In this document: one piece after another, positions 5,094 through 61,716 of the stretch | Layout: each line of letters starts with the position of its first letter | Position numbering within the stretch: position 1 is the first letter of the stretch | Origin: an uncultured Flavobacteriaceae bacterium | Lineage (GTDB): Bacteria; Bacteroidota; Bacteroidia; Flavobacteriales; Flavobacteriaceae | Assembly (NCBI GenBank): GCA_938020445.1 | Contig: CALIIC010000093.1 | Location: 1 to 64,000 of the forward strand | Direction: 5' to 3' | DNA length: 64,000 nt | Made by a program: the position numbers and the translations under genes | The notes under the pieces: model-generated | Seen by the model: the letters and a program-made list of their open reading frames with translations, nothing else | Told to the model about the DNA's origin: nothing | The model's database searches: none

Positions 5094-5116
5094 CTGGCAA
5101 AGATAGGCGTTGCTTT

Positions 5117-5158
5117 CAAATACAAATACAAATTCAAACACAAATTCAAGTTCAAATT
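5117..5158 (+). repeat. CAAAYN hexamer array (7 units)
   Basis: Seven consecutive hexamers run here: CAAATA, CAAATA, CAAATT, CAAACA, CAAATT, CAAGTT, CAAATT. The same unit family appears at 7544, 24883, 25036, 27470 and 27588. It lies just upstream of the chosen queE start and explains the spurious N-terminal extension of that ORF. Confidence 0.85.
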
Positions 5159-5220
5159 CGTAAAAGGAACATCCATAAGCGTTCAAACTACATAACCTTA
5201 GGGTTCTTTGTTTTCCTCTT

Positions 5221-5283
5221 TGTTCTCCTTTCTCTTTTCTCTTTCCTCTATTCTATATTCTCCATCCTCCGTTCTCTGTTCTC
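5221..5283 (+). repeat. Degenerate NNTTCTC heptamer array (9 units) in a pyrimidine-rich tract
   Basis: Nine heptamers in exact 7-nt register: TGTTCTC, CTTTCTC, TTTTCTC, TTTCCTC, TATTCTA, TATTCTC, CATCCTC, CGTTCTC, TGTTCTC. They sit in a nearly all-pyrimidine stretch from about 5201 to 5345 in the queE/herA divergent intergenic region. Units differ at the first two bases while the TTCTC core is kept. No protein is encoded convincingly; the ORF track start at 5301 (MFPHLFPSF...) is read from this tract. Confidence 0.75.
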
Positions 5284-5432
5284 TTTAAGCTTTTCATCCT
5301 TTGTTCCCTCATCTTTTCCCTTCCTTTTCTTTCCTTCTCATTTATTGCAAAAGTGGCTACAATTTAACCATGGTGGTTAAAAAGCTGTTTCATTATGCAA
5401 TTTTGCCCTATTTTTATACCAAATTCAAACCA

Positions 5433-23698: not shown

Positions 23699-24703
23699 TT
23701 ACTTTTCTTCATCGGTCCACGCGATAAACTTATTAAAAATATCTGCCCATTGACTTATGTTTTCGCCCTTTATTTCTTTCTGATAGCTATGATTACAACC
23801 AAGGCACACTTCAAAAGTTAAATTCTTTTTTCGTTTTTGCATGAATTGTATCGGAAGTAAATACGCTGTCTCAATCGGCGTACTTTCATCTTCGGATGCA
23901 AATTGGGCGTAAATGGGAATAGCCAGTTCCAACAAATATTCTATGGGCGCCCTTTCATAAGAAGACCAACGTTTGTTCGTGTAGCCGAAATCATCTATCT
24001 CCGTTGCATTGGGGTTTTCAACTACTGATCCATACCACTCAAGAATTTCCATATTTCTTTGATGCGCTACAGAATCGCTCACATTCCCTTGCAACGATTC
24101 GATCCTATTAAACAGCGAAAATTCATAAAAATTATTTAAGACATTCCCCGACCAAAAACCCAAATGGGTAATGCTTTTATTTTTCAAGGCCAACGGTGCG
24201 GCAATTGTTGCACCTTCAGAATGCCCGTACACTATAATTTTAGTGGGTTCTTGCAAGTGTTTTTGAATGATATCCTTGATGGCAACATCCACTTGATGAA
24301 CGCGGTAATCCAAATGATTTTTTTCATAAAACGCTTTCGGTACAACAATCTCCGCGTCGTTATAAATACCTGCCATCCCGGGCTTGGGTATAATGGCATA
24401 GGTATAATTCGTATCTAATTGCTTGTAATCATCTCCAAACCATCTTGAAATTACCGTTTTCCCGTTGCTTTTACCATAAGAAAAGATGGGATTGGCATCG
24501 GTACCCTGTATATAAACAACCAAATTTGATGGTTTCTCTTTATAATGTTTCAAATAGTAGGTGATGGTATCATTTTTTTCCACTAACTGTTCCTGTATGA
24601 AACCGTATTTCTCTAAGGCCTCATTAATGGTGGGCGTAGCGGATTGCTGTGCTGTGCCTAAAGCACAAAGGGCGATGAAGAGAAGTGTGAATACTGTTTT
24701 CAT
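23699..24703 (-). CDS. Secreted alpha/beta hydrolase-like protein
   Basis: The 334-residue protein has signal peptide MKTVFTLLFIALCALGTAQ. VVYIQGTDANP, then IIVYGHSEGATIAAPLAL gives the nucleophile elbow GHSEG, and CLGCNHSYQKE supplies a His near the C-terminus, all fitting an alpha/beta hydrolase with weak overall similarity to characterised enzymes. It lies just left of the repeat region at 24781 and is on the same strand as rlmF beyond it. Confidence 0.78.
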   Translation of the reverse strand: MKTVFTLLFIALCALGTAQQSATPTINEALEKYGFIQEQLVEKNDTITYYLKHYKEKPSNLVVYIQGTDANPIFSYGKSNGKTVISRWFGDDYKQLDTNYTYAIIPKPGMAGIYNDAEIVVPKAFYEKNHLDYRVHQVDVAIKDIIQKHLQEPTKIIVYGHSEGATIAAPLALKNKSITHLGFWSGNVLNNFYEFSLFNRIESLQGNVSDSVAHQRNMEILEWYGSVVENPNATEIDDFGYTNKRWSSYERAPIEYLLELAIPIYAQFASEDESTPIETAYLLPIQFMQKRKKNLTFEVCLGCNHSYQKEIKGENISQWADIFNKFIAWTDEEK

Positions 24704-24780: not shown

Positions 24781-24864
24781 TTAGAGGTTGCAGGTTAGAG
24801 GTTAGAGGTTAGAGGTTAGAGGTTAGAGGTTAGAGGTTAGAGGTTAGAGGTTAGAGGTTAGAGG
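24781..24864 (+). repeat. TTAGAGG heptamer array (12 units)
   Basis: Twelve units in exact 7-nt register; eleven are TTAGAGG and the second is TTGCAGG. It starts about 78 bp upstream of the start codon of the secreted hydrolase. It is the first block of a composite intergenic array that runs to 25182. Confidence 0.95.
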
Positions 24865-24882
24865 AATAAATAAATTCTAATA

Positions 24883-25036
24883 CAAACGTCAAACTCAAAC
24901 TCAAATACACACGTCAAACTCAAACTCAAATACAAACGTCAAACTCAAACACAAGCGTCAAATTCAAAACTGATTACTGTTTACTGCCAACTGCTCACTG
25001 CTCACTGTTCACTGTTAATTGTTCATTGTTCATTGC
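24883..25036 (+). repeat. Composite array, module 1: CAAAYN units then ACTGNNN heptamers
   Basis: From 24883 the units are CAAACGT, CAAACT, CAAACT, CAAATA and repeats of that series to about 24964. From 24969 there are heptamers in register: ACTGATT, ACTGTTT, ACTGCCA, ACTGCTC twice, ACTGTTC, ACTGTTA, ATTGTTC twice and ATTGC. No gene is present. Confidence 0.9.
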
Positions 25037-25182
25037 AATACAAGTTCAAGCGCAAGAGTCAAAAGTGCAAGTTCAAACTCAAATTCAAACGTCAAACTCA
25101 AATACAAACACTAACGTCAAATTCAAAACTGAATACTGAATACTGTTTACTGCCAACTGCCAACTGCCCACTGCTCACTTAG
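25036..25182 (+). repeat. Composite array, module 2: CAANNN units then ACTGNNN heptamers
   Basis: The same order is repeated: CAAGTT, CAAGCG, CAAACT, CAAATT, CAAACGT, CAAACT and so on, then ACTGAAT twice, ACTGTTT, ACTGCCA twice, ACTGCCC, ACTGCTC and a final ACTTAG (25177-25182). The last block ends exactly three bases before the stop codon of rlmF (25186-25188). Confidence 0.9.
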
Positions 25183-25185
25183 CCC

Positions 25186-26028
25186 TTACCGAAATGTCCA
25201 AGCAATAAAACGGCTTTTTTTATTTCCCTGTCCCATATCAACTACTTTCACCTCAGCGGGGTTTGTTTTATGTATGGAGCGTTTTATGGTCTTAAGGTGG
25301 TCTTTTTGTGAAACCAAAGCCGTAAACCAATGTACTTGTTCTTTGAAGTGAACACTTTCTTGCACCATTTTTTTCACAAAGCGTTCTTCCCCTCCCCTAT
25401 ACCATAATTCGTTCGCATTACCACCAAAGTTTTGGAGTGTCTTTTCTTGTAATCCAAGGTTTTTGACCTTGCGCTGGTTGCTACGCTGTGCTTCTTTTGC
25501 ACTCTTAAAGAAAGGGGGGTTACAAACAACCACATCGAATACATCTTCAGGTCTTATGATATGCTCAAAAATCGTATTCTTGAATTTTTGATGCCTCAGT
25601 GTTATACTTTTCAGGTTTGGGTTTGCATCAACAATGCTTTGTGCATGCCTTAGCGAAGCTACATCTGTTTCGCTAGCGGTACAATTCCAATTAAAATGGC
25701 ATGTACCCAAAATAGGATAGATCAGGTTCGCGCCGGTACCAATATCCAATAAATTTATGGATGCTTTCAACAATAAATCAGCCACATGTAGCAGGTAATC
25801 CAAACGACCTGGAATGGGCGGACAAAGATTGTTTTCAGGAATATCCCATTCAATCCTGTACCGTTCTTTTAGCAAGGCAGCGTTTAAGGCCTTTACCGCT
25901 TTTTGGTTTCCGAATTTAATTGTTTTAGTACCATAGTCGTTTACGAAAACATGGGTTCCCAAGGTATCGCTATACTGAACGAGGGTATCAAAATCGTATT
26001 CTGAAATAAAAGGGTTTTTAGGATGCAA
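25186..26028 (-). CDS. rlmF: 23S rRNA (adenine-1618 N6)-methyltransferase
   Basis: RlmF methylates A1618 of 23S rRNA. The 280-residue protein starts LHPKNPF, like the LHPRN start region of E. coli RlmF, and has a SAM site (LLDIGTGANLIYPIL), the N6-adenine catalytic motif NPPF in VVCNPPFFKS, and EELWYRGGEERFV-type C-terminal residues (GGNANELWYRGGEERF). The start is a TTG at 26028; the upstream in-frame codon is a stop three codons away, so no earlier ATG is possible. A repeat array abuts its 3' end. Confidence 0.93.
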   Translation of the reverse strand: MHPKNPFISEYDFDTLVQYSDTLGTHVFVNDYGTKTIKFGNQKAVKALNAALLKERYRIEWDIPENNLCPPIPGRLDYLLHVADLLLKASINLLDIGTGANLIYPILGTCHFNWNCTASETDVASLRHAQSIVDANPNLKSITLRHQKFKNTIFEHIIRPEDVFDVVVCNPPFFKSAKEAQRSNQRKVKNLGLQEKTLQNFGGNANELWYRGGEERFVKKMVQESVHFKEQVHWFTALVSQKDHLKTIKRSIHKTNPAEVKVVDMGQGNKKSRFIAWTFR

Positions 26029-26785: not shown

Positions 26786-27409
26786 TTATTTCTTTTCTTC
26801 AGCAAGTGCATTCTCTACCAAGAAAATGGTATACTTATAGGTTAGCTCCGAAGCTTTCTTTCGAAGGCGAAAGTAACTATACATTGAAAATGCCCCCAAG
26901 GCCATGCATGGAAATAACAGATACCAGGAAGGGTTCATCCCTCCTTCGCGAGGAATCAAAAACAAAATCGCCAAGAAGACCGAAATGACCACTAGGCTTC
27001 GAAAGAACTTTGAATTGGCCATTTGTAAATTGATTTGCCCTATAATGCTTGCCTCACTTTGAATTACCTTATAGGTCGCCCAATCTAGGTCGCCCAGCGA
27101 ACTCGCCAGACGTTGTTGGCGCATCTCTTTAATCCGTTCTAAGAATGGGCGGTCCTGTTTGTCTATCCACCGGTCATAGAAAGGCTTGTCCATCAAAGAC
27201 CCGATTTCCCGAATAAGGTGCCCAAATAAAAAGGCATATAGCAACAACACGGCCATTGCATAATTCCCTTCCGGATCATCAATACCAAAAACAGCCGACA
27301 CCTTAGACTTGAATTGAATATACAGCACGACGGATAGAATACCACCCGGAAGCAAAATCGAAAAGAAATCAACAATACCGATAAAGAAATTACTGGGTTT
27401 AAAATCCAT
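26786..27409 (-). CDS. Conserved membrane protein of unknown function
   Basis: The 207-residue protein has two hydrophobic N-terminal spans (FFSILLPGGILSVVLYI, then YAMAVLLLYAFLFGHLIREIG), a charged central stretch (WIDKQDRPFLERIKEMRQQRL), and two close spans near the C-terminus (LVVISVFLAILFLIP, WYLLFPCMALGAFSMYSYF). No family recognised. It is just left of the GTTAGAT array, whose first unit starts 12 bp upstream of the start codon. Confidence 0.75.
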   Translation of the reverse strand: MDFKPSNFFIGIVDFFSILLPGGILSVVLYIQFKSKVSAVFGIDDPEGNYAMAVLLLYAFLFGHLIREIGSLMDKPFYDRWIDKQDRPFLERIKEMRQQRLASSLGDLDWATYKVIQSEASIIGQINLQMANSKFFRSLVVISVFLAILFLIPREGGMNPSWYLLFPCMALGAFSMYSYFRLRKKASELTYKYTIFLVENALAEEKK

Positions 27410-27420
27410 CTTAGGTTGGT

Positions 27421-27462
27421 GTTAGATGTTAGATGTTAGATGTTAGATGTTAGATGTTAGAT
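27421..27462 (+). repeat. GTTAGAT heptamer array (6 units)
   Basis: Six perfect units of GTTAGAT (27421-27462). This is a one-base variant of the TTAGAGG unit at 24781 read in another phase (TTAGATG versus TTAGAGG). It is placed upstream of a minus-strand gene, as the first array is. Confidence 0.95.
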
Positions 27463-27469
27463 GAAAAAA

Positions 27470-27562
27470 CAAATTCAAGAGCAAGTGTCAAGCTCAAACT
27501 CAAAAAACTGCTTACCGTTTACTGTTCATTGTTAATTGCTAATTGTTCATTGCTACTTGTCT
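27470..27562 (+). repeat. Composite array: CAANNN units then ACTGNNN/ATTGNNN heptamers
   Basis: CAAATT, CAAGAG, CAAGTGT, CAAGCT, CAAACT, then in register ACTGCTT, ACCGTTT, ACTGTTC, ATTGTTA, ATTGCTA, ATTGTTC, ATTGCTA and CTTGTCT. Same order of blocks as at 24781-25036. Confidence 0.88.
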
Positions 27563-27587
27563 AAAGAATAAATGAAAAAAGTAAATT

Positions 27588-27650
27588 CAAACACAAACGT
27601 CAAATTCAAACACATAATTTTTCACTGTTCACTGTTCACTGATTACTACC
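27588..27650 (+). repeat. Short composite array: CAAAYN then ACTGNNN
   Basis: CAAACA, CAAACGT, CAAATT, CAAACA, then a CATAATTTTTC spacer, then ACTGTTC twice, ACTGATT and ACTACC. The spacer followed by ACTG heptamers recurs at about 27806, on the far side of the palindromic element. Confidence 0.85.
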
Positions 27651-27715
27651 TTGTCAGGTCGAGTCGAGATCTACTTGGCATGTTCCTAGGCTTTCGACTG
27701 CGCTCAAGGTGACAA
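27651..27715. repeat. REP-like imperfect palindromic element
   Basis: The element begins TTGTCAGGTCGAG and ends CTCAAGGTGACAA, an imperfect inverted repeat of about 65 bp. The right arm, CTTTCGACTGCGCTCAAGG, resembles a palindromic repeat widely dispersed in flavobacterial genomes (recalled, not checked). It lies within the array-rich intergenic region. Confidence 0.6.
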
Positions 27716-27816
27716 TGCGAAAAACAAGAAAGACCGTCACGTGTAAGGAACAAAGACAAAGGGCCGTGATACTGAAAGACAAAATATTGAATTAAAAATT
27801 AAATCCATAATTTTTC

Positions 27817-27900
27817 ACTGGTCACTGTTCACTGTTCACTGTTAATTGTTAATTGTTCATTGCTAATTGTTCACTGTTAACTGCCCATTGTAACCTGTCT
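27817..27900 (+). repeat. ACTGNNN heptamer array (12 units) overlapping a stop codon
   Basis: Twelve heptamers in unbroken register: ACTGGTC, ACTGTTC twice, ACTGTTA, ATTGTTA, ATTGTTC, ATTGCTA, ATTGTTC, ACTGTTA, ACTGCCC, ATTGTAA and CCTGTCT. The last unit overlaps the first two bases (on this strand) of the stop codon of the lipoprotein esterase gene. Confidence 0.92.
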
Positions 27901-29635
27901 ACCGATAGCGCCAACTCGTTAAATCAGCGTCTTTGGGAGCGCTTTCAGCAATGCGTTTCATGATTTTGGGTACGTACATGCGATTATAGCGTAAACGGCT
28001 GATGGCATTGGGTTGATTAGGATCGCCGTTCCAACAGTGTTCGGCCTGGTCACCATAGAGCACTTCCCCGTCATAATAGGGCTCTGAAGTATTTTCAAGA
28101 AAATCTTCCATCAAATACACCGCATTGTTCAGGTAATAATTATCCATATCACCACAATAAATATGGATCTTCCCTTTAAGGTGCTCCCCTAGCTTGTCCC
28201 AATCGCGTTCCAGAATATGGCGTAGGTCGTAGTTCTCTTTCCAATACTCGGCCACTTTATGGTCAATAGCACCCGTTTTCTTGTCCCAAATACGCACCGG
28301 GTAACCATCGGCTCCTTGCGGGGAATAAGTAGCTTCCCAAATATCCCATTGCTGTCCCGAACGGCTCTTATCGCCCAATACAAGTTCCAAATGATTTCCT
28401 TGACGCAGCGTCGATTGTATTTGTCCTAAATGATCCCGATGGCTTGGCACTTCCAATTGTTTGTGATCACTGGCATAGTAATAGGCGTTTTCATCCTCAT
28501 AAATATTCGTCAAACAATAGGCCCGAAAATCGATCGGATCGGGGCAGGCAGCAAAACAACCGTTGTATTCCTCAGGATATTTCACTTGAACCGCAAGTGC
28601 CTCCCACCCGCCGGTAGACCCCCCGTATAAAAAGCGCGACCAGCCTTCTCCCATACCCCTAAATTCTTTTTCGATATGCGGAATAAGCTCATAGGTAATT
28701 GCATCGCCATAGGGCCCTTGACTGGCAGAATTCACCGCATAGGAATCATCGTAATAGGGAGTCGGATGTTGGATCTCGATAATTAAAAAACGTGGGAATT
28801 CAGGTTCGTTCCAACGCTTATAAAAATCATAGGCCTCCTGTTGTTGGATGATATTATACCCTTCCAACTGAAAGCGTTCGGAATATTCCGGCTTTAGGTT
28901 GGGATCCGGTGGCGTGGTGCGAAAACCACCAAAGTCTGCCGGAAAATGCCCTTGAAATACCATAAGTGGGTATTTGGCTTCTGGGTGTTCTTCAAAACCT
29001 TTGGGCAATAGCACATGGGCTCCTAAATACATATCCCGGCCCCAAAACTCAGATAGCTTTTCAGATTTGATCTTAATGTGTTTGATCCATTCGGTATCGG
29101 CCGGTTCGGGAAGCGGAGGAATCACCTGATCCATGGTCACGGTCGCAGCCTCGATTCCCGTTTCGGTCACCGTCATCTGAAATGGTTTACTGAACAGATT
29201 CCCTGGAGAACGATTCCATTGCTGCCCTTCACCATTGTCCATCGGCAGCTTGACCGTCTGCCCTGTTGCGAGCTGAAATGTTTCATACACGTGCAATAAG
29301 GCCTGCACTTGATACACTCCCGGTGGCACTTCTGACAGACTGGGATAGGGATATCCAAAAATTTCCGAATCAAAGGTTTGTAGTTCACCTGCCTTCATTC
29401 CTTCTACATTCATCCCGTAAATCAATTGGGTATGGAGGCCATCGCTTATTTGAAAACGGGGTTCTTTTTCAGTATCGGTAGAAAGCATTAACAACAAGCG
29501 ACCATCCACGGGATTGCTACTAACAGAATCTGAAAAAGTGACCGAAATCGTAAAGTTCGACGCTTCTTCGGTTGCGGGCTGGCATCCCACTAGGAAAATT
29601 AGCGCTATTATTAAAAATGAAAAAAGTGATTTCAT
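27899..29635 (-). CDS. Lipoprotein esterase-like alpha/beta hydrolase
   Basis: The 578-residue protein has a lipoprotein signal (MKSLFSFLIIALIFLVGCQ). An N-terminal beta-sandwich-like region (to about 200) precedes an esterase-type domain with YPLMVFQGHFPADFGGF and nucleophile elbow YGGSTGGWEA, then ACPDPIDFRAY and AEHCWNGD, which supplies a His. It resembles large Bacteroidetes esterase-D-like proteins but the substrate is unknown. An ACTG heptamer array runs up to its stop codon. Confidence 0.82.
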   Translation of the reverse strand: MKSLFSFLIIALIFLVGCQPATEEASNFTISVTFSDSVSSNPVDGRLLLMLSTDTEKEPRFQISDGLHTQLIYGMNVEGMKAGELQTFDSEIFGYPYPSLSEVPPGVYQVQALLHVYETFQLATGQTVKLPMDNGEGQQWNRSPGNLFSKPFQMTVTETGIEAATVTMDQVIPPLPEPADTEWIKHIKIKSEKLSEFWGRDMYLGAHVLLPKGFEEHPEAKYPLMVFQGHFPADFGGFRTTPPDPNLKPEYSERFQLEGYNIIQQQEAYDFYKRWNEPEFPRFLIIEIQHPTPYYDDSYAVNSASQGPYGDAITYELIPHIEKEFRGMGEGWSRFLYGGSTGGWEALAVQVKYPEEYNGCFAACPDPIDFRAYCLTNIYEDENAYYYASDHKQLEVPSHRDHLGQIQSTLRQGNHLELVLGDKSRSGQQWDIWEATYSPQGADGYPVRIWDKKTGAIDHKVAEYWKENYDLRHILERDWDKLGEHLKGKIHIYCGDMDNYYLNNAVYLMEDFLENTSEPYYDGEVLYGDQAEHCWNGDPNQPNAISRLRYNRMYVPKIMKRIAESAPKDADLTSWRYR

Positions 29636-32138: not shown

Positions 32139-33023
32139 TTACCCTTTCGCCCTATGCCGCTCTCTGGCCAATAGCGTATTTTTCAGGAGCATGGCGATGG
32201 TCATGGGACCGACACCTCCTGGAACCGGCGTAATAAAAGAGGCCTTTTTACGCACATTTTCGAAGTCAACGTCTCCCGTAATATAGTAGCCTTTAGGCCT
32301 GGTTTCATCGGGAACACGCGTAATGCCTACATCGATTACTACGGCATCATCTTTTACCATTTCGGCCTTTAAGAAATTGGGCACGCCCAAGGCAGAAATG
32401 ACAATATCGGCCTGCGAAATAATTTGAGTGATATTTTTGGTATGACTATGTGTCAAAGTAACGGTTGAATTCCCAGGCCATCCTTTACGTCCCATCAAAA
32501 TGCTCATAGGCCGCCCTACAATATGGCTACGACCAATGACCACGGTATGCTTCCCTTTGGTATCTACTTTATAACGTTCCAACAATTCTAAAATTCCAAA
32601 GGGTGTGGCCGGGATGAACGTACTCATATCCAAGGCCATTTTACCAAAGTTGGCGGGATGAAACCCATCTACATCTTTATCAGGATGGATCGCCATGATT
32701 ACCTTTTGGGTGTCGATCTGCTCGGGCAACGGAAGCTGTACGATAAACCCATCGATGTCATCATTGGCATTCAGTTCTTCGATCTTTTTCAATAGTTCCA
32801 ACTCAGAAGTAGTGCTAGGCAATTGCACCAGGGTAGATTCAAAACCAACCCGCTCGCAGGATCGTACCTTACTACCCACATACGTAAGGCTGGCACCATC
32901 ACTTCCTACGATTACAGCAGCAAGATGTGGCACCTTTTCACCGCGTTCTTTCATTTTCGAAACCGTCTCTTTGATTTCTTCCTTGATTTGGTTCGATACT
33001 TTTTTTCCGTCTAGTATTTCCAT
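32139..33023 (-). CDS. folD: Bifunctional methylenetetrahydrofolate dehydrogenase / methenyltetrahydrofolate cyclohydrolase
   Basis: FolD interconverts 5,10-methylene- and 10-formyl-tetrahydrofolate with NADP. Present are YVGSKVRSCERVGFES with the catalytic Lys region, GFIVQLPLPEQID, DKDVDGFHPANFG and VVIGRSHIVGRPMSILM in the NADP-binding domain, ending TPVPGGVGPMTIAMLL. Length, 294 residues, is normal. The intergenic region upstream contains a NNNCAGT heptamer array and then the four-helix-bundle gene. Confidence 0.96.
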   Translation of the reverse strand: MEILDGKKVSNQIKEEIKETVSKMKERGEKVPHLAAVIVGSDGASLTYVGSKVRSCERVGFESTLVQLPSTTSELELLKKIEELNANDDIDGFIVQLPLPEQIDTQKVIMAIHPDKDVDGFHPANFGKMALDMSTFIPATPFGILELLERYKVDTKGKHTVVIGRSHIVGRPMSILMGRKGWPGNSTVTLTHSHTKNITQIISQADIVISALGVPNFLKAEMVKDDAVVIDVGITRVPDETRPKGYYITGDVDFENVRKKASFITPVPGGVGPMTIAMLLKNTLLARERHRAKG

Positions 33024-33029
33024 TTTAGT

Positions 33030-33056
33030 ATTCAGTTGCCAGTGCCAGTTAGCAGT
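33030..33056 (-). repeat. Short ACTGNNN array (read on minus strand) on the folD side of the four-helix-bundle gene
   Basis: On the minus strand the units read ACTGCTA, ACTGGC, ACTGGCA, ACTGAAT (one unit is a base short). On the plus strand the array is ATTCAGT, TGCCAGT, GCCAGT, TAGCAGT. It ends six bases from the folD start codon. It is inverted relative to the array on the other side of the four-helix-bundle gene. Confidence 0.75.
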
Positions 33057-33059
33057 ATG

Positions 33060-33425
33060 CTATACTCCAAACTTAGCCGGGTTAGTAATCATATATTGAA
33101 TTAGTTTGCCTACTTCATTGCTTTGCTGTTGCAAGGTTTTTTCTATTTCAGCAGTAATATATTGACAAGAAAGTGCAAATTGCAACCATACTTGTGTTTC
33201 CGAATTTTCTCCATCAGCATCGGTCAACTTGCTAATAAAGTGTTTTACATATCTTCTTTTTCGATACGGCTCCGCTATATTAGAACAAACCGAATGAGAA
33301 GACCTTCTAATCTGATCAGTAAGGGAGTAGCTTTCTTCCTTGGGAAATGATTTTGTCAACTCAAAAATCTTTATTGACAAAAAAAAGCCTTTTGATATGC
33401 CAACAATTTTTGAAAACTCATACAT
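33060..33425 (-). CDS. Four-helix-bundle protein (S23/IVS-encoded family)
   Basis: The 121-residue protein has the family pattern: ELTKSFPKEESYSLTDQIRRSSHSVCSNIAEPYRK and a helical C-terminus. Related proteins were first found inside 23S rRNA intervening sequences, and the diversity-generating-retroelement protein Avd shares this fold; the function of free-standing copies is unknown. It is placed between folD and ffh on the same strand with ACTG-type repeats on both sides. No reverse transcriptase gene is present nearby. Confidence 0.92.
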   Translation of the reverse strand: MYEFSKIVGISKGFFLSIKIFELTKSFPKEESYSLTDQIRRSSHSVCSNIAEPYRKRRYVKHFISKLTDADGENSETQVWLQFALSCQYITAEIEKTLQQQSNEVGKLIQYMITNPAKFGV

Positions 33426-33459
33426 CTTTTTTACAAATACTCTTTACTAAACTTGTTTG

Positions 33460-33482
33460 CAACTGCCAGCTGCCAACTTAGT
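33460..33482 (+). repeat. Short ACTGNNN array on the ffh side of the four-helix-bundle gene
   Basis: GCA then ACTGCCA, GCTGCCA and ACTTAG (33476-33481). ACTTAG ends three bases before the ffh stop codon (33485-33487), as at 25177 beside rlmF. The flank is an imperfect inverted copy of the 33030 array. Confidence 0.75.
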
Positions 33483-33484
33483 AA

Positions 33485-34822
33485 TTACTTCATCCCCTTC
33501 ATACCGCCCATCATCTGCATCATTTTTTTACCGCCGCCTCCTTGCATCATCTTCATCATCTTGCCCATTTGATCGAACTGTTTCAACAATTGGTTCACTT
33601 CCTGAATGGTTCTTCCACTTCCTTTGGCAATCCTCTTTTTTCGACTTGCATTTAGTTTCGCAGGCGTGGAACGTTCGTCCGGCGTCATTGAATGAATGAT
33701 CGCTTCAATATGTTTAAAGGCATCATCGTCGATATCAAGTCCTTTGAGCGCTTTACCGGCACCGGGAATCATCCCCATAAGGTCTTTGATATTCCCCATT
33801 TTTTTGATCTGCTGAATCTGGCTCAGAAAGTCATCAAAGCCAAACTTGTTTTTGGCGATTTTCTTTTGAATCTTTCGGGCCTCTTCCTCGTCGAACTGTT
33901 CTTGCGCCCGTTCTACCAGAGAGATAACGTCTCCCATACCCAGGATACGATCCGCCATTCGCGAAGGGTGGAACACATCAATAGCCTCCATTTTTTCCCC
34001 CGTTCCTATAAACTTGATCGGTTTATCTACCACAGATTTGATAGAAATAGCGGCTCCTCCACGGGTATCTCCGTCCAATTTTGTTAGGATGACCCCATCA
34101 AAATTCAAAATATCGTTGAAGGCCTTTGCTGTATTTACGGCATCTTGCCCCGTCATTGCATCCACTACAAAAAGGGTCTCTTCTGGCTGTATGGCTTTGT
34201 GAATATCCGATATTTCGTTCATCATCTTCTCATCCACGGCCAAGCGACCGGCGGTATCGATGATAACAACATTATGGCCATTCGCCTTTGCATGTGCAAT
34301 TCCCGCTTGGGCAATGGCAACCGGGTTCTTGTTTTCCTTATCGGAATACACCTCTACGTTTATCTGCCCTCCTACCACATGTAATTGATCAATTGCTGCG
34401 GGGCGGTATACATCACAGGCAACCAATAAAGGGTTTTTGCTCTTCTTCGTCTTTAAAAAATTGGCAAGCTTTCCGGAAAAAGTGGTCTTACCCGAACCTT
34501 GTAAGCCTGACATAAGGATGATCGATGGGGTACCTGAAAGGTTGATACCCTCGGTTTCCCCTCCCATAAGCTCGGTGAGTTCGTCCTTGACGATCTTTAC
34601 CATGAGCTGCCCCGGTTGTAAGGTGGTCAATACATTCTGTCCCAAGGCTTTTTCCTTGACTCGGTTGGTAAATTCCTTGGCTATCTTGAAGTTGACATCC
34701 GCATCCAATAGTGCTCGCCGCACTTCCTTGGTTGTTTCTGCAACATTAATTTCGGTTATTTGGCCATGTCCTTTTAGTACATGAAGGGCCTTATCGAGCT
34801 TTTCGCTTAAATTATCGAACAT
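33485..34822 (-). CDS. ffh: Signal recognition particle protein Ffh
   Basis: This 445-residue protein has the SRP GTPase motifs: GLQGSGKTTFSGKLA (G1), DVYRPAA, DTAGRLAVDEKMM (G3), TKLDGDTRGGAA and FIGTGEKMEAI, followed by a methionine-rich M domain ending MMQGGGGKKMMQMMGGMKGMK that binds signal peptides and 4.5S RNA. Length is normal. It targets ribosomes making membrane proteins to the Sec machinery together with FtsY, which is not in the window. Confidence 0.97.
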   Translation of the reverse strand: MFDNLSEKLDKALHVLKGHGQITEINVAETTKEVRRALLDADVNFKIAKEFTNRVKEKALGQNVLTTLQPGQLMVKIVKDELTELMGGETEGINLSGTPSIILMSGLQGSGKTTFSGKLANFLKTKKSKNPLLVACDVYRPAAIDQLHVVGGQINVEVYSDKENKNPVAIAQAGIAHAKANGHNVVIIDTAGRLAVDEKMMNEISDIHKAIQPEETLFVVDAMTGQDAVNTAKAFNDILNFDGVILTKLDGDTRGGAAISIKSVVDKPIKFIGTGEKMEAIDVFHPSRMADRILGMGDVISLVERAQEQFDEEEARKIQKKIAKNKFGFDDFLSQIQQIKKMGNIKDLMGMIPGAGKALKGLDIDDDAFKHIEAIIHSMTPDERSTPAKLNASRKKRIAKGSGRTIQEVNQLLKQFDQMGKMMKMMQGGGGKKMMQMMGGMKGMK

Positions 34823-34952
34823 CGTCTTACTAGATTTTGAAGAAAAGCAAATTTAAGAATAAGGATGGGAATGAAGGGCGAATGGACTCAAAAATATTGT
34901 GTATCCGTATGCTTCTCGGTTTACCAGGTTGGGAAAGGAACTTCAATAAAAC

Positions 34953-58776: not shown

Positions 58777-60063
58777 CTATCGCTGGTCTACCTCTACAAA
58801 ACCGCGGGAATTCGCTCCCGTATATACTTGTCTAGGGCGACCTATGGGTTCGTTGTTCAAACGCATTTCCCTCCATTGTGCAATCCACCCGGGAAGTCTT
58901 CCCAAAGCAAACATCACCGTAAACATTTCGGTAGGTATTCCCAAAGCCCGGTAAATAATACCTGAATAAAAATCCACATTTGGATAGAGCTTTCGATCTA
59001 CAAAGTACTGATCTTCCAATGCTTCTTTTTCAAGCCCTTTGGCTATTTCCAAAATAGGATCTTCGATTCCTAAATCGGCCAATACCTCATCTGCTGCCAC
59101 TTTTATAATCTTGGCCCTCGGATCAAAGTTTTTATATACGCGGTGTCCAAAGCCCATAAGACGAAAAGGGTCGCTCTTGTCTTTTGCCTTGGCCATATAC
59201 TTCTTGGTATCTCCCCCATCTGCTTCTATTGCCTCCAACATTTCAAGTACCGCTTGGTTGGCACCACCATGCAAGGGGCCCCATAAAGCCGAAATACCTG
59301 CCGAAAGCGATGCAAACAAGCCCGCATGGGATGAACCTACGATCCGCACGGTCGAAGTAGAGCAGTTCTGCTCATGATCAGCATGCAGTATCAAAAGTTT
59401 GTCTAAAGCTTCTATAACGATTTCATTCTTTTGGTAGGTTTGGGTCGGTTTTTTAAACATCATTTTGTGGATGTTCTCTACATACCCCAAGCTATCATCG
59501 CCATAATCCAAAGGAAGTCCTTTCTTTTTGCGCATAGTCCAAGCGACCAACACCGGAAACTTTGCCAGAATGCGCACAATTGCGTGGTACATGGCCTTTT
59601 CCGAAGAAACATCTACTGTTGAAGGGTTAAAAGCAATCAAAGCACTTGTCAAAGATGACAATACCCCCATAGGATGCGCTGATTTTGGAAAGCTGTCCAG
59701 AATTTTCTTCATTTCCTCATCAACATGCGATTCCTCTTTGATATCCGCATGAAACTTAACGAGCTGCTCTTTATTGGGTAATTCTCCAAAAATCAATAAA
59801 TAAGCTACCTCTAAAAAATCAGCTTTTTCTGCAAGTTCCTCGATTGAATAACCGCGATATCTGAGTATACCCTTTTCCCCATCCAAAAAAGTAATGGCAC
59901 TGGAGCAAGAACCCGTATTCTTATAACCGGGGTCTATGGTGGTGATACCCCCTGTTGCCGACCGCAAGGTTTTTATATCGATGGCAAGCTCGTCTTCGGA
60001 GCCTTTTATTACCGGAAATTCGTATTTCTGACCGTTATATTCTAAAGTAGCTTTGTCTGTCAT
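58777..60063 (-). CDS. gltA: Citrate synthase
   Basis: Type II citrate synthase, 428 residues, converting oxaloacetate and acetyl-CoA to citrate in the TCA cycle. Key segments: GYSIEELAEKADFLEVAYLL, LHADHEQNCSTSTVRIVGSSHAG with the catalytic His, GPLHGGANQAVLEML, GFGHRVYKNFDPRAKI and the C-terminal FALGRLPGWIAQWREM. Length is as expected. A terminator follows. Confidence 0.97.
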   Translation of the reverse strand: MTDKATLEYNGQKYEFPVIKGSEDELAIDIKTLRSATGGITTIDPGYKNTGSCSSAITFLDGEKGILRYRGYSIEELAEKADFLEVAYLLIFGELPNKEQLVKFHADIKEESHVDEEMKKILDSFPKSAHPMGVLSSLTSALIAFNPSTVDVSSEKAMYHAIVRILAKFPVLVAWTMRKKKGLPLDYGDDSLGYVENIHKMMFKKPTQTYQKNEIVIEALDKLLILHADHEQNCSTSTVRIVGSSHAGLFASLSAGISALWGPLHGGANQAVLEMLEAIEADGGDTKKYMAKAKDKSDPFRLMGFGHRVYKNFDPRAKIIKVAADEVLADLGIEDPILEIAKGLEKEALEDQYFVDRKLYPNVDFYSGIIYRALGIPTEMFTVMFALGRLPGWIAQWREMRLNNEPIGRPRQVYTGANSRGFVEVDQR

Positions 60064-60180
60064 TTGTCGTAATTACTTAATTTTAAAGTGAATTGTAAAT
60101 TTAAGAAAAACAAGGGACGTTAACAATTTAGTCTTGGTATTTAGACATTAATTAACGCCTGTTAATTCGGTAGATACGCA

Positions 60181-61716
60181 CTATAACAAGTAAAGTTGTT
60201 TGTAATAGTCCGTCACCGATTTTTCCCATGTAAATCTCATTTTTTTTGCCCCTGACCGAATGCGTTGCCATTTTTTTGGATCGTTCTTAAAAACATCCAA
60301 AGCAAGATCGAAACTTGCCAGCATATTCTGTATTTTTTCCTCGTAGGTATCCCCATCGAACGCAAAGCCCGTTTTCATATGCGCAACAGTGTCCTTGAGG
60401 CCGCCCGTGTGATGCACCAAACAGGGGTTTCCATTTCGCATTGCCAGCATTTGACTGATACCACATGGCTCAAAAAGGCTCGGCATAAAGTATAAATTCG
60501 ATTCTAGATAAATAGAATCTATCAGATCCTCGGATTGTCCGTTCGTAAAAATAAAATTCTGATGCGTATAGCTCATTTCCCTGAAAAGTGCTTCGTACTC
60601 TGGAGCACCCGTACCCAATAGCATAAAGATACCATCAACTTCGTCGAGCTTTTTCAAGATACTTACGAATGCCTCCGGGGAACGTTTAAAAAAGTAAAAT
60701 TTTTGCTCCGTTAGGCGTGCTACGCTCGAAACAATGAATTTTGGTTGTTTCGCTACATACTGCATTACCTTCTCCCCGGTATGGGCCAAAAAGTCGGCCT
60801 TGTACTTCTTAGACTCTTCTTGAAGCCATCGAAACAATGCTTTTACCGTATTCCGATACAACTTGCCCGTATCCGCAACTCTAATATTGCCATAATTACA
60901 GCCATTCAAAATACCGTAAAGGCGCCCTTCATTGTCTGCTTTCAACAAATCTTGTTCCAAGCCTTCGCCTCCGATAAATTCTGGTGGGGAACTGGGTTTT
61001 AGCACATCTTCCTTGTAAGAAGGGGAAACGGTATGTACGGCATCTGCTAAGCGTATGCCCACCGCCATCAAATTCACACAATCCTGATAGCGATAATCCA
61101 TCAACGCCTTCTCATCATAATTGATTTCGGGAAACCATGTTTTTAGCGAAGAGTAGTTGTTCTCAAAAGGACGTATGCCCTGTATTGCCAAGTTATGGAT
61201 GCTATACACATACCGCATCTTTGTAAGTGCCTTATAAGCAGGGTGGTATTTCTTTAAGAACAGGACCAAACTTGAGTGCCAATCGTGCATATGCACAACA
61301 TCTAATTTCCCAAAAGCCTCTTTTTTAAGCGCCTCAGCCACGCCGGTACAAAAAATAAAGTACTTGATAGCATCGGTATAGAAGGGTTCGGTAGGATCGT
61401 TGTGATAAATATGGGCAATATCGCCTTCCTCTATCTCAGGATGATGCAATACATAATGATGAACGTTCTTATATTCTTTCTTGGGAATGACCTCATACAA
61501 TTCAGCAGTATAGGTTGTGCCTCTAAGCGGGAAATTAAGGTGGGTCTTGAAGGTCCCGTTTTGATGCAATCGCCCATAGGAAGGTACGACCACATGTACT
61601 TTATCTCCCATAGCAGAAATCTGTCTCGGTACGTCGCGGACTACATCACCCATGCCCCCGGCCTTGCAATCCGGTATTGCATCATTTTCGGCGGCAACGA
61701 AAAGAAAATTGTTCAT
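60181..61716 (-). CDS. glgA: Glycogen/starch synthase (GT5)
   Basis: The 511-residue protein has the GT5 start with the ADP-glucose-binding KxGGxG-type motif (DCKAGGMGDVVRDVPRQI), HMHDWHSSLVLFLKKY, YSIHNLAIQGIRPF, and a C-terminal GT-B domain with IVSSVARLTEQKFYFF and FMPSLFEPCGISQMLAMRNG. It likely elongates glycogen from ADP-glucose. No glgB or glgC is in the window, and identification rests on motif pattern. Confidence 0.88.
   Translation of the reverse strand: MNNFLFVAAENDAIPDCKAGGMGDVVRDVPRQISAMGDKVHVVVPSYGRLHQNGTFKTHLNFPLRGTTYTAELYEVIPKKEYKNVHHYVLHHPEIEEGDIAHIYHNDPTEPFYTDAIKYFIFCTGVAEALKKEAFGKLDVVHMHDWHSSLVLFLKKYHPAYKALTKMRYVYSIHNLAIQGIRPFENNYSSLKTWFPEINYDEKALMDYRYQDCVNLMAVGIRLADAVHTVSPSYKEDVLKPSSPPEFIGGEGLEQDLLKADNEGRLYGILNGCNYGNIRVADTGKLYRNTVKALFRWLQEESKKYKADFLAHTGEKVMQYVAKQPKFIVSSVARLTEQKFYFFKRSPEAFVSILKKLDEVDGIFMLLGTGAPEYEALFREMSYTHQNFIFTNGQSEDLIDSIYLESNLYFMPSLFEPCGISQMLAMRNGNPCLVHHTGGLKDTVAHMKTGFAFDGDTYEEKIQNMLASFDLALDVFKNDPKKWQRIRSGAKKMRFTWEKSVTDYYKQLYLL

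Follow-up and report, generated by a model that had tools for sequence, protein, structure and literature searches.

Heptamer arrays are known, yet their purpose, and the reason why certain words are their favourites, is still a question. The gap beside the rlmF gene of an uncultured Flavobacteriaceae bacterium poses it in an ordered form, being composed of twelve TTAGAGG units followed by CAAAYN, ACTGNNN, CAAAYN and again ACTGNNN units. Ordered words, at sites that can be compared over about ten species and that include both filled and empty gaps, make two old questions testable: whether slippage or copying is responsible for the growth of such arrays, and what holds the ACTG core constant, a core that the TAACTGA repeats of cyanobacteria and Beggiatoaceae also have.

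Anatomy of the rlmF gap

Coordinates refer to the window, the whole 64,000-nucleotide stretch of contig CALIIC010000093.1 that was analysed; its genome, a draft of 207 contigs that is 82% complete, is designated G000. The array occupies 24781-25182 (sequence and TRF) and is built of three kinds of module, here called T, C and A. The named relatives of RlmF are those of Arenibacter certesii and A. amylolyticus (64-67% identity), which puts this flavobacterium in their vicinity.

23699 to 24703, minus strand: gene on one side of the gap
24781 to 24864, plus strand: module T, a near-perfect heptad head of TTAGAGG x12 (TRF, 12.0 copies, 94% matches)
24865 to 24882, plus strand: A/T-rich junction AATAAATAAATTCTAATA, AAAAAAATAAATTCAAA in other copies (sequence)
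24883 to 24968, plus strand: module C, round 1, CAAACGT/CAAACT/CAAATA/CAAACA units (TRF periods 6, 19 and 25; core pattern)
24969 to about 25038, plus strand: module A, round 1, ACTGNNN then ATTGNNN heptads (sequence, TRF, pattern search)
About 25040 to 25127, plus strand: module C, round 2, CAAG units then CAAAYN units (sequence, TRF, core pattern)
25128 to 25180, plus strand: module A, round 2, ACTGNNN heptads, the last of them 6 nt short of the rlmF stop codon (sequence, TRF, pattern)
25186 to 26028, minus strand: rlmF (Methyltransf_10, PF05971), on the other side of the gap

The preliminary description had given this anatomy, with twelve TTAGAGG and two CAAAYN/ACTGNNN rounds, correctly in every particular. 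Its denial of CRISPR structure and coding sense also holds: a CRISPR locus would show cas genes and repeats some 21-37 nt long, set apart by unrelated spacers, whereas the units here measure 6-7 nt and lack spacers, and coding sequence was rejected because no ORF of at least 60 aa lies inside the rlmF gap array. In the units of the window, ACTG is followed by the triplets ATT, TTT, CCA, CTC, TTC and AAT. The position of the T head is constant at other loci, where its spelling or copy number differs, and the junction AAAAAAATAAATTCAAA recurs in loci L031, L041, L068 and L131 and in L077 of G008.

A second composite lies at 27420-27891, 2.2 kb from the first, with an identical module order (T, junction, C, A, then further rounds of C and A).

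27420 to 27463, plus strand: module T, TGTTAGA x6.3 (100%), 11 nt from the start codon of the minus-strand gene at 26786-27409 (TRF, sequence)
27464 to 27506, plus strand: module C, junction AAAAAACAAATTCAAG then CAAG/CAAA units (sequence)
27507 to 27563, plus strand: module A, ACTG/ATTG heptads (TRF, sequence)
27583 to 27610, plus strand: round-2 core AAATTCAAACACAAACGTCAAATTCAAA, an exact match to the family consensus (core pattern search)
27621 to 27645, plus strand: round-2 module A, TTCACTG x3 and neighbours (TRF, sequence)
27814 to 27891, plus strand: third ACTG/ATTG block, 7 nt before the stop codon of the minus-strand gene at 27899-29635 (TRF, pattern, sequence)

Behind the ACTG block there is often a palindrome, TGTCAGGTCGAG...CTTTCGACTGCGCTCAAGGTGACA, as at 27653-27716 of the window and at L121, L122, L124 and L147. 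Elsewhere in the window, a block of CAAATA/CAAATT units stands without a T or A module (5115 to 5159, plus strand; TRF, sequence). It is adjoined at 5205-5310 by C/T-rich heptads (TTCTCTT, TTTTCTC), possibly a fourth word family, which also occur near arrays in L143 and L152.

Recurrence and order of the modules

The pattern ACTGNNN x4 has 32 matches in G000 and the backward pattern none; a 28-nt CAAA core, at no more than three mismatches, has 31 matches and its reversed control none; and TTAGAGGTTAGAGGTTAGA occurs at two loci, again with zero for the reversed control. By these counts, the array is far beyond chance. Copies on contigs C199, C27, C67, C48 and C116 start with head heptads (TTAGATG, TTAGAGG, TTTGAGG or TCGGAAG), continue with AAAAAAATAAATTCAAAYACAAAYGTCAAAYWC or a close variant and pass usually into ACTG heptads.

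The modules nearly always keep one order and one strand relative to each other. When all array-bearing gaps in CAAA-core loci of G000 and the congeners G004, G008, G003, G001 and G009 were read on the array strand, C came before A in 49 of 52 scorable gaps (17 of 17 in G000 alone), T, in the form of TTAGAKG-like heptads, before A in 22 of 22, and T before C in 18 of 25; some gaps are orthologous and the counts not fully independent, a reservation from which the 17/17 of G000 stands apart. Exceptions to the position of T are mostly heptads of the TTATGAG/TTCGGTG type placed between C and A.

An open scan of every 4-mer recurring three times at a period of 5-12, covering about 820 kb of contigs (~423 kb from G000, ~397 kb from G004), returned the same words. 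Period 7 was dominant, with TTAG/TAGA/CTAA/TAAC and ACTG/ATTG/TACT/AACA as its top non-homopolymer words, while CAAA/TCAA led at period 6. The T, C and A words are essentially the sole complex short-period words in these 820 kb, and the composite family is therefore not an artefact of pattern choice. Searched for by unit and by order, the combination recurs at dozens of non-homologous gaps in G000 and its congeners; the array belongs to a family copied to many places, always non-coding and without CRISPR structure.

In G003, a 1.5 kb island (L116; contig C3, ~749.8-751.3 kb) holds 74 CAAAY words and 27 ACTG heptads. It lies between orthologues of the window genes at 27899-29635 and ~32150-34880, where G000 has other genes.

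Distribution across genomes

The composite family is genus-specific: its CAAA core was found in 7 of 10 congeneric genomes, G005, G006 and G007 being without a match, while 51 further genomes of the Flavobacteriales gave no match at all. Viral contigs contained no exact CAAA core, and phage carriage was rejected on this ground.

The ACTG heptads reach further. ACTGNNN x4 is present in 21 of 60 relatives, with ~830 matches against ~38 for the reversed core, a 22-fold excess within the Flavobacteriales; the gaps concerned belong to other genera and families and are unrelated. Across the phylum such arrays are patchy (95 of 247 genomes), and in most genomes the reversed control is near zero. ACTG followed by ATA (ACTGATA) is present in other genera. 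In one of these (G022), T-like heptads and CACAAAG words likewise stand ahead of ACTG; in the others the ACTG arrays usually stand alone. The phylum scan also returned five genomes (G158, G170, G178, G193 and G236) with tens to hundreds of arrays of GTCANNN, the reversed control, and few or no ACTGNNN. Since some lineages prefer GTCANNN, the possession of fixed-core heptads appears to be general, and the choice of ACTG to be characteristic of this class.

Age of the sites and turnover of the units

About a dozen array gaps of G000 have orthologous array gaps in G004 or G008, whose fourfold-degenerate sites are 43% and 52% identical, respectively, to those of G000. The array positions are old, since the gaps are common to species with near-saturated synonymous sites. 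Between orthologous gaps the copy number and spelling differ and the module order is constant. The mapping of copy number suggested in the preliminary description was carried out across congeners and brought out such differences: in the rlmF gap, G008 has both rounds with about two TTAGAGG instead of twelve, and G004 a remnant only. Behind an M14 peptidase gene, the head is TTAGATG x9 in G000, TTTGAGG x1 in G008 and about six mixed heptads in G004, all leading into a common junction, core and ACTG remnants; the same gap is empty (35-50 nt) in G005 and G006. The gap 5' of ruvC is filled in G000, G004, G008 and G003 and measures ~20 nt in G002, G005, G006 and G007. In outgroups, the corresponding gaps are empty.

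Orthologous cores are 78% identical and paralogous cores 76-77%; orthologues are no closer than paralogues, and the cores lie near a common consensus, without local identity. Set against 43-52% at fourfold sites, the 78% of the cores implies constraint or a concerted renewal toward the common motif. At L122 of G000 (C75, ~36.6-36.9 kb), the ACTG block is inverted within the composite (CAGTATT...CAGTAGC); in the orthologous gaps of G008 and G004 it runs forward, and a local inversion in G000 is possible.

The units turn over in place. Among 90 ACTG arrays from many genera, neighbouring heptads carried an identical NNN triplet in 39% of cases at lag 1, with further peaks at lags 2, 4 and 6, as compared with 4.9% between arrays. 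Agreement so far above the between-array level indicates that units multiply where they stand, by local tandem duplication. Thus, the claim that the array is 'a copied element, not random slippage' stands in its first half, the family being dispersed to many gaps, but slippage is no alternative to copying when neighbouring units are copies of one another.

Slippage alone nevertheless does not explain a fixed ACT(G) beside a variable NNN. In imperfect arrays, chosen by 7-nt periodicity alone and then aligned in phase to an ACT or ATTG consensus, which adds some bias, the conservation of the core A, C and T was 0.82, 0.74 and 0.75, as against 0.57-0.63 for the remaining four positions. Under plain slippage all seven positions should drift alike; nor can plain slippage choose a word, as would be required by an ACTG core that other genera and families have in common, in gaps that are unrelated.

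Genomic setting and folding

The arrays are neutral with regard to orientation, 25 running with and 24 against co-directional genes, and they seldom lie between divergent genes (4 of 63 array gaps, 74 of 297 baseline gaps; p = 0.0006). Neither strand folds as well as its dinucleotide shuffles do (z +3.5 and +5.0), a deficit to which the low-complexity sequence itself contributes. Random orientation, few divergent gaps and poor folding together argue against a transcript-oriented element and fit DNA tolerated away from promoters.

Several more specific candidates were rejected. A structured RNA is opposed by this poor folding and by the lack of any Rfam match to the rlmF gap array up to E = 1. 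The C-rich, G-poor CAAAYN strand would suit a Rho-loading site, but the orientation to genes is random. The TTTG words of the minus strand lack, by inspection, the TANNTTTG context of the Bacteroidetes -7/-33 promoter. Finally, a KOPS-like marker of the replication strand is opposed by the two orientations occurring close together in G022, G003 and G004.

Interpretation

The reading that we favour, at a probability of roughly 0.6, is that the islands are a genus-specific, non-coding composite satellite, anciently dispersed, vertically kept and renewed by slippage, which is mainly tolerated DNA without a gene-specific job. An element consisting of a TTAGAKG-type head, an A-rich junction, CAAAYN and ACTGNNN would have spread to many gaps early in the history of the genus, settling where no promoter was broken (compare the few divergent gaps). 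Later renewal would have proceeded in place, strand slippage duplicating one 7-nt (or 6-nt) unit, or several at once, in tandem. Extension of a slip may require re-pairing of the fixed part of the word, ACT(G), CAAA or TTAGA; words that lost it would stop multiplying, and the core would stay fixed for this mechanical reason.

The main rival, which we hold to be possible but doubtful, regards the islands as arrays of binding sites, in which a sequence-specific factor with affinity for DNA or RNA, such as a nucleoid protein or one that binds mRNA, would read ACTG and/or CAAA at 6-7-nt steps, selection keeping the cores and slippage altering only the number of sites. Retention of ACT(G) beside a varying NNN, recurrence of ACTG-heptad arrays across genera with a near-zero reversed control in most genomes, and cores that stay near consensus despite saturated synonymous sites would all be expected of it, as would the unusually unfolded strands (z +3.5, +5.0), suited to open single-strand targets, although low complexity contributes to these. 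However, orientation that is random to transcription (25/24) argues against a role at the mRNA level, the congeners G005, G006 and G007 do without the core at no obvious loss, no candidate protein was found, and MacGregor's translational model needs arrays just before start codons, which is not the case here. Rather more doubtful is the proposal that a Bacteroidota factor recognises ACTG (in this genus also CAAA and TTAGA) at 6-7-nt steps and so keeps or builds hundreds of fixed-core, free-triplet islands; if true, the factor reading the cores would represent an undescribed system of binding or copying that acts across the chromosome.

A repeat that is mobile now, on its own or mobilised by RAYT in the manner of REP/BIME, would also account for a dispersed family with a fixed anatomy. 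RAYT-type Y1 transposases had matches in 6 of 6 checked core-bearing congeners other than G000 and in 0 of 3 core-less ones, an association confounded by phylogeny, and in an unbiased sample the TGTCAGGTCGAG...CTTTCGACTGCGCTCAAGGTGACA palindrome was enriched in array gaps (2 of 13, against 3 of 284 other gaps). We consider this reading improbable, however, for G000 has no Y1 match in a genome that is 82% complete, neither terminal inverted repeats nor target duplications were observed, and the positions are old and common to several species; with about a dozen sites held in common by species whose synonymous sites are near saturation, no current mobility is apparent. The single RAYT locus that was read (G004:C18) is, moreover, flanked by a different, G+C-rich palindrome. 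This locus (59528-60595; L286/L287) comprises a pair of neighbouring genes for RAYT-type Y1 transposases, one of them fragmentary, between palindromes CGCTAGCGCTCGTCTCCGACGAGTGCC.

Least probable of all is that the islands serve as sites of recombination or rearrangement, or that changes in their length affect neighbouring genes by phase variation, an idea put forward for the long heptamer arrays of Gramella and Microcystis (PMC4679880). Copy number does differ between species and several draft contigs end in arrays, but contig ends are expected at repeats, flanking gene order is mostly kept at array gaps (in the unbiased sample, two of only four scorable gaps were adjacent in both genomes, a sample too small to reveal a difference), and a Xanthomonas analysis found greater stability at heptamers (PMC4692102).

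Comparison with known repeat systems

The composite resembles REP/BIME in being a dispersed intergenic repeat, found in the same gaps; REP elements, however, are hairpins, whereas its modules lack self-complementarity and fold poorly (z +3.5 and +5.0). The STRR repeats of cyanobacteria are tandem heptamers in intergenic DNA. With these and with the long simple sequence repeats (LSSR), among which heptamers are the most frequent class (Mrazek 2007, cited from PMC4679880), the composite shares head-to-tail 7-nt units between genes, module C having a period of 6/7, but neither system is known to have a fixed combination of three families. Furthermore, LSSR are defined by the identity of their units, which reaches 94% in TTAGAGG, while ACTGNNN varies at three of its seven positions.

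Rehm et al. (2015) described GGGNATC heptamer repeats in Xanthomonas and Nostoc (PMC4692102). These too are dispersed heptads with a variable position, lying between aligned ORFs and seldom between divergent ones, and in Xanthomonas their positions are conserved between species and their length is variable. GGGNATC is G-rich, however, forms G-quadruplexes and prefers four units, whereas ACTGNNN and CAAAYN are incapable of a quadruplex: neither contains a G-tract, and TTAGAGG has GG steps only, so that the sequence fails the criterion of four G-tracts. Nor does that paper describe an order of modules such as the composite has.

The nearest precedent is the TAACTGA arrays, direct repeats of a heptamer that MacGregor (2015; PMC4679880) described in marine Beggiatoaceae, in cyanobacteria and in five Bacteroidetes. 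In Gramella and Aequorivita, TAACTGA gaps hold other heptamers as well, and relatives have array-free gaps. The composite shares these features, together with the 7-nt period, the intergenic location and the ACTG core, TAACTGA being ACTGATA in another register; the exact TAACTGA heptamer is not among the units of the window, in which ACTG precedes six other triplets. TAACTGA is a single fixed heptamer of which related forms are rare, whereas the triplet of the composite varies freely; in Beggiatoaceae it stands mostly just before start codons in one orientation, whereas the composite is randomly oriented (25/24); and the heptads form, in our case, the last module of an order of three. The preliminary description knew of no account of such a combination, and among open-licence papers we found none of the three-module order, the free triplets or the CAAAYN module. 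That statement has to be narrowed, since arrays of fixed-core heptamers in gaps of mixed heptamers are on record from Bacteroidetes, cyanobacteria and Beggiatoaceae (PMC4679880) as well as from Xanthomonas and Nostoc (PMC4692102). The composite adds a new form to the known heptamer repeats of cyanobacteria and Xanthomonas.
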